Origin: Sulfurimonas sp.
Lineage (GTDB): Bacteria; Campylobacterota; Campylobacteria; Campylobacterales; Sulfurimonadaceae
NCBI GenBank assembly: GCA_027013185.1
Contig: JALUXS010000092.1
Span: forward strand, 1 to 40,841
Reading direction: 5' to 3'
DNA length: 40,841 nucleotides
The notes under the pieces were generated by a model. That model worked only from the letters and a program-made list of their open reading frames with translations. It had not been told where the DNA came from and did not search any database. Shown here piece by piece: positions 1 through 2,907 of the stretch; the stretch's first letter is position 1; every line of letters starts with the position of its first letter. A program made the translations under genes and the position numbers.

Positions 1-47
1 CTCTCTTTAAAACTAAGGTAATCTTTTAAATAAAATCTTTCTATCAT
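1..47 (-). CDS. recN: DNA repair protein RecN, N-terminal 15 codons (runs off left edge)
   Basis: A minus-strand reading frame begins with ATG at 47-45 and runs off the left end of the window. An AAGG ribosome site lies about 7 bases upstream. The visible residues are MIERFYLKDYLSFKE, which resemble the first beta strand and turn of RecN, the SMC-like ATPase that tethers DNA ends during double-strand break repair. No Walker motif is visible because only 15 codons are present. Context supports the call: in Campylobacter recN follows nadK on the same strand, and nadK lies further right here in the same orientation. Identity rests on a short match plus synteny. Another coiled-coil ATPase of the SbcC/RecF type cannot be excluded. 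Confidence 0.55.
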   Translation of the reverse strand, partial: MIERFYLKDYLSFKE

Positions 48-79
48 TTTTTTGCCTTGTAGTATTCATACACACTAAA

Positions 80-107
80 TATTTAAGAATGATATTACTT
101 TTTTCAA
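80..107 (-). promoter_or_regulatory. Candidate promoter for recN
   Basis: On the minus strand TTGAAA (107-102) is followed after 16 bases by TAAATA (85-80), about 30 bases before the recN start codon. The match is reasonable but the region is very AT-rich, so chance matches are easy. Confidence 0.3.
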
Positions 108-221
108 AAAAGAATTCTTTATTTGACAAATTGTCATATTTTTAATAATTAACACACAAATAGTTTGTTTGTTAATGTTGCTTTTTAGAGTTGATTTGTG
201 TAAAATGTGTTTGAATAAATA

Positions 222-299
222 GTTGCCTCGGACGCTTCGCTTACCAAGGCAACGGGGGCGCGGGCTTAACACCCGCTAGTTCCCCGGCGCTACAGCGCC
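222..299. repeat. GC-rich cluster of three hairpins without a gene, possible mini-cassette body
   Basis: In an otherwise AT-rich stretch three stem-loops follow each other: GTTGCCT (222-228) with AGGCAAC (247-253), GCGGG/CCCGC around CTTAACA, and GGCGC/GCGCC around TACA. GTTGCCT at 222 is also the exact inverse of AGGCAAC at 300-306, which begins the first attC. That is the relation expected between the first bases and the attC start of a single cassette, so 223-379 could be a cassette of about 157 bp with no protein gene. The rest of the region 48-221 holds only the recN upstream sequence and AT-rich DNA, including the palindrome TGACAAATTGTCA at 124-136. Confidence 0.45.
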
Positions 300-385
300 A
301 GGCAACAAGTGGGAGGAGCGAACAACTCCATCGGAAACCAAAAACTTTCAAATGAAGTTGTCACTCACCCGCGCTCCCGTTATCA
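300..385 (+). other. attC-like recombination site (first, 86 bp)
   Basis: Outer boxes are AGGCAAC (300-306) and GTTATCA (379-385). Inside, GGGAG (311-315) pairs with CTCCC (374-378), GCG (318-320) with CGC (370-372), and ACAACTCCAT (322-331) with ATGAAGTTGT (352-361) at 9 of 10 positions. This gives the imperfect hairpin with unpaired bases that integron integrases recognise on the folded strand. The outer boxes need not match each other because they come from neighbouring cassettes. Confidence 0.6.
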
Positions 386-393
386 GGAGAAAT

Positions 394-873
394 ATGAAAA
401 CACTCAGGAACATTTTATTTAAATTATTTGTAATCTTAGCATTTACCTTAATATTTATTGTCAGTGTGATAGGAGGTGTTTATGGACATTATAAAAAAAT
501 GGATGAAAGGAAAACTTGGATTGATTCAAGTGGTGTAATTGTTTCATCTTCAATAAGCAAAGTAATTCGATCAAAAGGAATAACATATTGTCCTAATATT
601 ATAGTTAAGTATTCCTTTCAAGAACAAAGTTTAAATTCACAATTAATTTTAGAAGATGGAGAGTGCCGACCAGTAAAGGTTTTTGTCAAGAATAATATAG
701 AAAAATATACCAAAGGAATGACTATTAATATTTTAATGAATCCCAAAAAACCAACAAAAATTTATGCCGATGATTATTCAGATGGCTTAATGTTTTATTT
801 AATGTTATTAGCATCTATAATATCATTTACGGGGTTGTTCTTTGCTATAATTACTCCTTCAAATAAACTATAA
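394..873 (+). CDS. DUF3592-like membrane protein, cassette 1 gene
   Basis: This 159-residue protein has a hydrophobic segment at about residues 8-29, an extracytoplasmic beta-rich middle and a second hydrophobic segment near residues 131-152. The order membrane helix, soluble domain with a WIDSSGVIVSSSI stretch, membrane helix resembles DUF3592 proteins, whose role is unknown. An in-frame ATG at 352 lies inside the attC hairpin. The ATG at 394 follows an AGGAGA ribosome site and lies just past the cassette boundary, so it is preferred. The gene ends 18 bases before the next attC, which is typical of cassette genes. The family assignment is from pattern only. Confidence 0.65.
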   Translation: MKTLRNILFKLFVILAFTLIFIVSVIGGVYGHYKKMDERKTWIDSSGVIVSSSISKVIRSKGITYCPNIIVKYSFQEQSLNSQLILEDGECRPVKVFVKNNIEKYTKGMTINILMNPKKPTKIYADDYSDGLMFYLMLLASIISFTGLFFAIITPSNKL

Positions 874-891
874 TATAAACATAAATATTAC

Positions 892-959
892 AGATAACAA
901 GACAGAGTAGCCAATAAGTACCCTAACGGGAACTTATTGGCTATATTCAGCCGTTATGT
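892..959 (+). other. attC-like recombination site (second, 68 bp)
   Basis: Outer boxes are AGATAAC (892-898) and GTTATGT (953-959). The central stem TAGCCAATAAGT (908-919) pairs perfectly with ACTTATTGGCTA (932-943), with CCC/GGG closing the loop. AGATAAC mirrors the GTTATCA at the start of cassette 1 except for one base, as expected for the two ends of one cassette. The style ATAACAA...CGTTATG is like the Vibrio-type attC sites. Confidence 0.75.
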
Positions 960-991
960 ATAAAATAATGACTTCCATAAAATCTAAGATC

Positions 992-1020
992 TTGAAATTA
1001 TGTTAAAATACTTTTATATA
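992..1020 (+). promoter_or_regulatory. Candidate sigma70 promoter inside cassette 2
   Basis: TTGAAA (992-997), a 17-base spacer and TATATA (1015-1020) lie 18 bases before the DUF4160 start codon. An internal promoter would let the cassette be expressed without an integron Pc promoter. Confidence 0.5.
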
Positions 1021-1037
1021 AATTTTAGGACTATAAA

Positions 1038-1274
1038 ATGCCAACAATTTTAAAAATTAAAGGCTATCGCTTTTTCTTCTTTTCAAGAGAAGAACTAAGA
1101 CAGCATATTCATATACAGTGCCAACATGGTGAAGCAAAATTTTGGCTAGATCCTCAAATTGAATTAGCAAAAAACTATAAGCTTTCTCGTAAAGAGCTCA
1201 ATGAAGTTGAAAAAATCATTGAAGAACATTATGAAGATTTTATTAAAGCATGGGAGGAACATTTTGGAAGCTGA
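1038..1274 (+). CDS. DUF4160 domain protein, first gene of cassette 2
   Basis: This 78-residue protein starts MPTILKIKGYRFFFFSREE and carries HIHIQCQHGEAKFW, the pattern of the DUF4160 family of small proteins of unknown function. AGGA at 1027-1030 lies 7 bases before the ATG. It overlaps the following DUF2442 gene by 11 bases, indicating translational coupling. DUF4160 and DUF2442 genes are often found side by side, and a toxin-antitoxin-like role has been considered for such pairs, but nothing in this sequence proves it. Confidence 0.75.
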   Translation: MPTILKIKGYRFFFFSREELRQHIHIQCQHGEAKFWLDPQIELAKNYKLSRKELNEVEKIIEEHYEDFIKAWEEHFGS

Positions 1275-1497
1275 AGTAACAAATATATCAAATCATGGAT
1301 TATGGATATTAGCAGGAGACAAAGAACTATTCTTGCCTTATGAACAGTTCCCTTGGTTTAAAGATAAAACTATTAATGATATAACAAAAGTTGAAAGTTT
1401 TGGGGAAGGTCATCTTTATTGGGAAAATTTAGATGTGGATTTGAGTTTAGAAATGATAGAACACCCTGAAAGATTTCCACTTCAAGCACATACATAA
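1264..1497 (+). CDS. DUF2442 domain protein, second gene of cassette 2
   Basis: The 77-residue product has the DUF2442 core ISNHGLWILAGDKELFLPYE followed by an FPWF motif. Longer frames begin at ATG 1201 or 1231, but those codons lie deep inside the DUF4160 gene. The TTG at 1264 sits 5 bases after GGAGG (1254-1258), so it is preferred. The stop codon TAA (1495-1497) is itself part of the ACATAAC box of the next attC, so gene and recombination site are fused end to end. Function is unknown. The partner gene overlaps upstream. Confidence 0.7.
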   Translation: MEAEVTNISNHGLWILAGDKELFLPYEQFPWFKDKTINDITKVESFGEGHLYWENLDVDLSLEMIEHPERFPLQAHT

Positions 1498-1561
1498 CAA
1501 AAACGAGGAGACCAATAATTTTTTCTAGCGATAAAATTATTGCTCACGATTGCCGTTATGT
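1492..1561 (+). other. attC-like recombination site (third, 70 bp)
   Basis: Outer boxes ACATAAC (1492-1498) and GTTATGT (1555-1561) are perfect inverses. CAATAATTTT (1513-1522) pairs with AAAATTATTG (1533-1542). The left box overlaps the DUF2442 stop codon. Nothing resembling a matching attC (an ACATAAC box) was found in the following 1.6 kb, so this may be the last site of the array. Confidence 0.75.
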
Positions 1562-1574
1562 GTAAAATCAAATA

Positions 1575-1631: not shown

Positions 1632-2309
1632 ATGAAAATTTTGCATAGGGATGATTTAAAACGTGGTGGATTTGCGGGACTTCGAGAATATCGCCTTGTT
1701 ACGGATAAACGATTATTCGGTGTTTCTAAGTTAAAAGATACATGGGATGGCATAGGTAATTTTGTTTATTTAGCAGATGCAAAATTTTTACCAAAAGGTG
1801 AAACAGGACTTCACAATCATAAAGAAATTGATGTAATTTCAGTCATGGTTGAAGGTCGTATTATGCATGAAGGTTCGTTAGAACATGGAAAGCTTATGGA
1901 TTCACATCAGGTTCAAGTACAACGTGCTGGGGGAGAAGGATTTGCTCACAATGAAATAAATCCAGATAATACTGAGAACAGAATGATACAGATTTGGGTA
2001 TTACCGGAGATGCCAAAACAAAGTGCAGGGTATAAACTGTATTTTCCTAAGAATGGCAGATTAGCACGTGTTTACGGTGGTGAAAAAAACCAGGAAGAGA
2101 CCTTTAATAGTCATACACTTATTGATACAGGGGTTATTTTAGCAGATGAAAGTATATCTATAAATGTACCAATTATGGCTTATATAGTACGTGGTTCAGG
2201 ACTACTCAATACTCAAACAGTAAAAGATGGCGATTTAATATACGATGATAAGCTCAAGTTTACAGCTAAAGAAAATACACAAATCATAATAATTCATAAA
2301 CTTATTTAA
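1632..2309 (+). CDS. Pirin family protein (YhaK-like bicupin)
   Basis: This 225-residue protein has the pirin bicupin layout. The N-terminal cupin contains HNH (H61, H63) and a later H106-x-E108, the four metal ligands known from pirins, so the metal site is intact. Pirins bind Fe(II) or similar metals. Some act as quercetin dioxygenases and others as redox or regulatory proteins, so the substrate cannot be read from sequence. The length matches the YhaK/pirin family. The gene has its own promoter directly after the third attC. It could be the first chromosomal gene after the cassettes or a cassette whose end site has been lost. Confidence 0.8.
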   Translation: MKILHRDDLKRGGFAGLREYRLVTDKRLFGVSKLKDTWDGIGNFVYLADAKFLPKGETGLHNHKEIDVISVMVEGRIMHEGSLEHGKLMDSHQVQVQRAGGEGFAHNEINPDNTENRMIQIWVLPEMPKQSAGYKLYFPKNGRLARVYGGEKNQEETFNSHTLIDTGVILADESISINVPIMAYIVRGSGLLNTQTVKDGDLIYDDKLKFTAKENTQIIIIHKLI

Positions 2310-2364
2310 AAAAGTTTAGATATACTTGTTAATAAACGAAATTAGTAAGGTTGGGAGTTTTTTC

Positions 2365-2907
2365 ATGAAAAAATTAATTTTAATAGTGCTTTTGATGCAT
2401 AATTTATTTGCATTAGATTCTGTCAGTTCAATATCAAAAGAACAAAAAAAAGTAGTTACAAGAGTTGTTGAAGTACTTGGATTACCATCAACAAAACAAA
2501 CAAAAGAACTTGTTTTTAATAAATTGGGGAGCTTTTTTACAAAAAACTGGTCTGCACACTGGACTACAAACACTACAGGGGCGAATTCTAAAATTAAAAA
2601 CAGTAAAACTCAAATATGCGACGTAACAATCTACAATAATAATCGCGTTGTAAATTGTACTTTTGTTTATTTCAAAAAAGAAAAACAATTATTTATTACA
2701 TTAAAGCAATATATTGAAGCAGAATCAAACTTAGTCTTAGATTTATACAAAAAACGTAAAAATGATTCTAAATATTCCTTGGAAAATGAAACAGACAATT
2801 ATGCATACTTTCAAGAAAAAGGTTATATGAGCTATGAAACATACCATATAAAATCTCCCGTTGGCATGGTAGTTTATGAAAGTTCTTATATTTTAAATAT
2901 TAAATAA
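2365..2907 (+). CDS. Hypothetical secreted or periplasmic protein
   Basis: I do not recognise this 180-residue protein. It begins with a clear signal peptide (two lysines, a hydrophobic core to about residue 16, then FALDS, cleavage likely after the alanine). The mature part is polar and rich in Lys, Asn and Tyr, with two cysteines around residues 77-87 (ICDVTIYNNNRVVNC) that could form a disulfide. An in-frame ATG lies at 2326, but the ATG at 2365 directly precedes the signal peptide and follows TTGGGAG. It lies in the accessory block between recN and nadK and has no visible operon partner. Confidence 0.6.
   Translation: MKKLILIVLLMHNLFALDSVSSISKEQKKVVTRVVEVLGLPSTKQTKELVFNKLGSFFTKNWSAHWTTNTTGANSKIKNSKTQICDVTIYNNNRVVNCTFVYFKKEKQLFITLKQYIEAESNLVLDLYKKRKNDSKYSLENETDNYAYFQEKGYMSYETYHIKSPVGMVVYESSYILNIK

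Follow-up and report, generated by a model that had tools for sequence, protein, structure and literature searches.

A cassette array with a retained attI and no adjacent integrase gene at the recN locus of a Sulfurimonas MAG

In integrons, the integrase IntI cuts folded bottom-strand attC sites and attI at G|TT, inserting or excising circular cassettes. The locus analyzed here raises the question of how an array of such cassettes came to stand beside recN with no integrase gene between them. Clusters of attC sites lacking an integron integrase are known as CALINs (Cury et al., as reviewed in PMC8618304). The window, by which we mean the whole 40,841-nt stretch analyzed, is contig C92 of a Sulfurimonas MAG (121 contigs, 78.8% complete). 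The original prediction, made from the sequence letters, had placed at its left end an integrase-less array beginning at position 300, with three attC sites and two same-strand cassettes. The array actually starts at 222 and holds three cassettes, the first of which has no ORF; the two gene cassettes are as predicted. The features of the locus are as follows:

1-47, minus strand: opening 15 codons of recN, the rest lying beyond the contig end; the start matches that of relatives
54-74, no strand: junction where intI is missing; the ribosome-binding region of recN gives way to sequence from the attI side
74-224, plus strand: attI region, up to and including the conserved GAATAAATA-GTT crossover (G222|TT); aligned with 12 intI-bearing relatives
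178-206, plus strand: predicted cassette promoter Pc, TTGCTT-17 nt-TAAAAT, assigned by eye
223-379, plus strand: cassette 1, ORF-less mini-cassette of 157 bp; G|TT boundaries identical in relatives
301-385, plus strand: attC1, of the mini-cassette; R'' GGCAAC-AAG at 301-309, R' GTTATC at 379-384; supported by fold and covariation
380-953, plus strand: cassette 2, encoding a small DUF3592-like membrane protein (394-873)
890-961, plus strand: attC2; AAC at 896-898, GTT at 953-955
954-1555, plus strand: cassette 3, with overlapping DUF4160 (1038-1274) and DUF2442 (1264-1497) genes
1490-1563, plus strand: attC3, last of the array; AAC at 1496-1498, GTT at 1555-1557

The attC sites were examined with two covariance models from which the window was excluded: R1, constructed from 24 Sulfurimonas attC sites in intI-adjacent arrays of relatives, and R2, constructed from 13 relatives' copies of the mini-cassette. 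R1 matched 889-962 at 69 bits (E 4e-13) and 1489-1564 at 56 bits (E 3e-10), both on the plus strand, and R2 matched 223-388 at 139 bits (E 8e-39). Folding of the bottom strand as ssDNA gave z-scores of -7.0 (245-391), -5.8 and -3.7 for the three sites in turn. Compensatory pair changes scored 0.35 for A2 (0.10 when shuffled) and 0.30 for A3 (0.12 when shuffled), and the covariation of both modelled structures was well over that of column shuffles and slid controls. The window sites carry inner and outer paired boxes with R'' AAC and R' GTT in a conserved structure, bearing out the prediction that all three fold as attC. attC1 has an alternative long form with pairing from AAC 251-253, attC2 has an 87% identical counterpart in the array of relative G011, and attC3 shares 88% identity over 67 nt with a site in locus L119. 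At intI loci, nearly all R1 matches fell on the array side and on the strand opposite intI. Among class 1/2 integron controls R1 matched 0 attC sites, while a simple finder reported attC-like sites in 3 of 5 control regions; R1 is therefore a model of this lineage, unlike the general one of IntegronFinder, and class 1 attC sites were not taken as a yardstick. Boundaries at G|TT in relatives provide indirect evidence that the window sites would be recombination-competent.

Strong hairpins after genes could also be ordinary intrinsic terminators between small genes, and one weak terminator-like match lies at 938-953. We give this reading practically no weight: a single terminator-like site was found against 0.8 expected by chance; terminators do not show conserved AACAA...CGTT boxes flanking the stem, variable intervening cassettes or junctions placed exactly at G|TT; and the cassette genes are missing from the corresponding locus in relatives. 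Nor were the sites seen to keep a fixed position after the same genes across all relatives. A scan of the window with Rfam gathering thresholds returned nothing, so no curated RNA family accounts for the hairpins. Window 222-1557 is almost certainly a genuine integron cassette array, comprising three head-to-tail units on the plus strand, each closed by an attC-like site whose final box starts with GTT. With three same-strand attC sites within 1.35 kb, it exceeds the two clustered sites at which a CALIN is called.

Between recN and the array lies an AT-rich stretch (20% GC, up to position 221) in which the original prediction had overlooked an attI, complete up to GAATAAATA-G|TT at 222. Its assignment is based on the alignment with the relatives and on the conserved GAATAAATAGTT. 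An AATARTT motif was present in 52 of the 57 intI loci having enough upstream sequence. Within the attI alignment, the spacing of Pc and a TATAAT-like -10 element are conserved; Pc was not listed by a generic consensus promoter scan and is thus a prediction only. The presence of attI bears directly on the origin of the array. Cassettes could have been inserted off-target by a distant IntI where no local integrase had ever existed, and dispersed attC sites elsewhere in this MAG (contig C69) and in G011 agree with such an orphan CALIN. We reject this origin as very improbable because a full attI ending in the conserved crossover stands between recN and the first cassette; moreover, the flanks match those of intI-bearing relatives on both sides.

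Comparison with relatives indicated what the locus has lost. The recN start at position 47 on the minus strand (MIERFYLKDYLSFKE), correctly predicted, is identical or near-identical to the recN starts of relatives, and the gene runs off the contig. Six relatives (G011, G027, G001, G018, G014 and G013) have intI immediately upstream of recN and in the same orientation. It occupies precisely the interval between recN and the array, hence the side where the prediction expected it; in G011 it ends ~13 bp before the recN start. With a strict pattern, 19 of 74 intI loci, among them that of the isolate S. indica, have recN immediately after intI. The order in G011, the closest relative by both NadK and RecN, is recN-intI-attI-array-rSAM-Memo-deacetylase-nadK, and in three integron-free loci (L037, L044 and L045) nadK is followed directly by recN. 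Against the intact relative G027, window 1-61 aligns with L021 3915-3856 and window 70-381, covering attI and the mini-cassette, with L021 2793-2482, at 93% DNA identity each, so that the window lacks 1,054 bp comprising the whole intI (L021 2890-3855) and some upstream DNA. The trinucleotide GCC (window 54-56) is present on both sides in G027, which is compatible with illegitimate recombination. The NadK proteins of the two genomes are just 81% identical despite the 93% identity of the attI segment, and the latter may reflect either strong constraint or transfer. Since relatives carry intI at the recN locus and the window retains attI and the recN start without it, the array, as it stands on this contig, is best read as a decapitated chromosomal integron, a CALIN that keeps its attI.

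Integrase function looks to have been lost repeatedly at this locus, given the absence of intI in the window, G009 and G010 and the palindromes in G011, G014 and G033. In G009 and G010 (both 99% complete), recN is followed by attI without intI, away from contig ends, and the attI of G009 is degenerate. In G011 (L016), G014 (L024) and G033 (C42:1514-1550), a palindromic repeat replaces the stretch of intI encoding the catalytic tyrosine (TMIYT), and palindromic insertion into the catalytic motif appears to be one route of loss. The repeat is dispersed, ~47 nt long (..CGCTTTAGCGACGG.GGT.TCGGCATTTAGTGCCAGA), and stands in frame at the same intI position in the three genomes. It also occurs elsewhere, after an apparent 5S rRNA gene in G009 and near other genes.

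Taken together, the comparison favors, with reasonable but far from complete confidence, a sedentary chromosomal integron remnant between recN and rSAM-Memo-deacetylase-nadK from which intI has been deleted, with the caveat that the junction lies 55-70 bp from the contig end of an incomplete MAG. A competing account, which we consider possible but clearly the less probable, holds that the array is real and the missing intI an effect of assembly or binning: the organism would carry an intact recN-intI-attI, and the first 60 bases would come from a joined strain variant, the junction not being that of the main haplotype. The contig does start 60 bp from the junction, inside recN, and the MAG is incomplete. 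Furthermore, the complete recN of the MAG lies on another contig (C109:1-1588; L128/L135), preceded by the 3' end of an intI (P-K-L-I-S-P-L-D-F-stop), and its best relative is G011 (83%), as for the NadK of the window (82%). The two recN starts differ at 3 of 53 bases (94% identical), so that two haplotypes, species or copies are mixed or present in the bin. Set against this, recN-attI without intI also occurs off contig ends in the two 99%-complete genomes; the recN and attI sides meet within a short region that lacks any long repeat prone to misjoining; and a second decapitated integron lies inside contig C18 of the same MAG. This C18 remnant (C18:13300-13700; L179 3333-3666) consists of attI and ~21 intI codons, followed by radC and restriction-modification-type genes. 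A DUF2442 cassette between two attC sites (C18:6361-6994; L148) is located ~6 kb from the C18 attI.

The genome-wide search for IntI that had been proposed found none intact in the MAG, the best profile match being a Xer-like gene at 60.7 bits against a cut-off of 265. The prediction of a Campylobacterota host with no adjacent intI is supported. Its description as integrase-less applies to the contig, on which no integrase was found, and to the MAG as far as intact genes are concerned; given the 78.8% completeness and the intI 3' end on C109, it is not proven for the organism, and an intact intI may exist in the population or in unassembled DNA.

Under the deletion account, the ancestral locus would have carried a closely spaced intI-recN tandem, from which attI and the cassettes pointed away. 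An illegitimate deletion of ~1.05 kb would then have removed all of intI and its upstream leader, leaving attI, the predicted Pc and the three cassettes, whose G|TT boundaries are apparent by comparison with relatives. Without intI, the array would be frozen unless an IntI acts in trans, and Pc could still transcribe the ORF-less cassette, the DUF3592 gene and the putative toxin-antitoxin pair of cassette 3. The three cassettes are probably still readable and no longer movable by an enzyme of their own.

The first of these cassettes, the mini-cassette, has a GC content of 58% against 33% for the window, contains no ORF in any of six frames and is bounded by recombination sites. It was found in 12 of 249 genomes of the class, spanning six genera of Campylobacterales, in many cases immediately adjoining attI (11 of 74 counted loci, with G011 and G001 in addition). 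Repeated copies in L014, L016, L092 and L095 agree in sequence over the whole unit, GTT through final G, wherever their ends are shown, and they are preceded by differing attC or attI sites and followed by differing cassettes, joined exactly at G|TT. These joins are the strongest sign of integrase action in the sequence comparison. The 5' box, the first R''-like box and the true R'' box vary together among species, as GTTGCC/GGCAAC/GGCAAC in one set, GTTGTTCG/CGAACAAC/CGAACAAC in another and likewise in others. The mini-cassette was absent from the 72,556 plasmids searched, its exact 21-base core pattern was found in none of the viral contigs searched, and the literature searched described no conserved gene-less cassette family of this kind in Campylobacterales. 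We tentatively raise, as an improbable proposal, that it is a functional element in itself: brought to attI by recombination, it would act as the structured 5' leader of the Pc transcript, or as a relay promoter or insulator, and would be copied from array to array by virtue of controlling neighboring cassettes. On this view, loss of the integrase beside recN would lock in one such regulated state, with recN placed under former intI/attI sequences. In L122 (8525-8980), three mini-cassettes stand in direct tandem beside intI.

No relative of cassette 2 was found in 59 other genomes searched. The predicted DUF3592 gene is present, and its Pfam match (24.7 bits) falls just below the cut-off of 25.3. 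In cassette 3, DUF4160 and DUF2442 matched Pfam at 66 and 56 bits, and the DUF2442 stop TAA (1495-1497) overlaps the ATAAC R'' box of attC3, both as predicted. The cassette 3 body (window 954-1557) is 91% identical to a copy in G030 (L168 1665-2338) that lies within another attC array. As NadK is only 76% identical between the two genomes, this is good evidence for horizontal movement of the DUF4160-DUF2442 cassette. Identity between the two copies stops at the R'' box and the attC sites differ, which suggests that a cassette body can exchange one attC site for another. The same domain pair, with the toxin gene first and the genes overlapping, is found in DhiTA of Dickeya dadantii, an experimentally tested toxin-antitoxin pair (PMC8198452). 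Unlike DhiTA, the pair here is inside an integron cassette and its function is putative: the NCBIfam toxin_DhiT model gave 24 bits against a cut-off of 100, so that the DUF4160 protein is a relative rather than DhiT itself, and we consider the two genes a candidate DhiTA-type toxin-antitoxin pair. Toxin-antitoxin cassettes are frequent stabilizers of large arrays, and cassette 3 may have such a role. PADLOC identified no defence gene among the cassette proteins examined.

Integrons in Campylobacterota and CALINs arising by intI loss are already known: the phylum is among the listed integron-bearing ones and the origin of CALINs by intI loss has been proposed (PMC8618304), and In0 and CALIN elements are tabulated for Sulfurimonas autotrophica and CALINs for Sulfurovum (PMC10295459). 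The statement that cassettes are seldom described in this phylum consequently holds for detailed work but not for such listings. The window shares with CALINs its attC sites and cassettes without adjacent intI, and intI deletion is among their proposed origins; however, CALINs are usually called without attI, whereas the window keeps attI and a predicted Pc, and comparison with an intact relative locates the edges of its deletion. In Xanthomonas, genus-wide erosion of intI at the fixed ilvD locus (PMC12444791) likewise involves an ancestral site with repeated intI loss or truncation leaving arrays, but the phylum and the locus (recN) differ here, and one route of loss appears to be a palindromic insertion in the catalytic motif. 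Gene-less cassettes with promoter activity have been described in Vibrio superintegrons (PMC11014356) and the oral metagenome (PMC6557892). They resemble the mini-cassette in having no ORF and recombination-site bounds, and those tested often bear promoters; the mini-cassette, in contrast, is a single conserved, GC-rich, highly structured family of ~160 bp, repeated in arrays, often attI-proximal and present in six genera. The apparent novelty lies in the recN locus and its recurrent loss of the integrase, together with this conserved gene-less mini-cassette.

The locus provides a precisely mapped, probable case of a chromosomal integron turned into an integrase-free array, with attI kept and intI cut out. 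Its phylum branches deeply and consists mostly of environmental chemolithotrophs, and relatives present the intact, palindrome-interrupted and deleted states side by side. Comparisons inside a single genus can therefore test what becomes of frozen arrays and whether toxin-antitoxin and gene-less cassettes help to maintain them. The shared mini-cassette lends itself well to tests of promoter activity and leader RNA.

Past the last attC, window 1632-2907 contains a pirin-like gene and a 193-aa ORF that are missing from the corresponding place in G011; these could be former cassettes without attC. Across the genomes, attC sites were found in 24 of 37 searched and IntI above the curated cut-off in 15 of 60. 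In G004, whose intI matches are all below the cut-off, ~16 attC sites lie on one contig (C32:94290-105723), forming a large integrase-less array.
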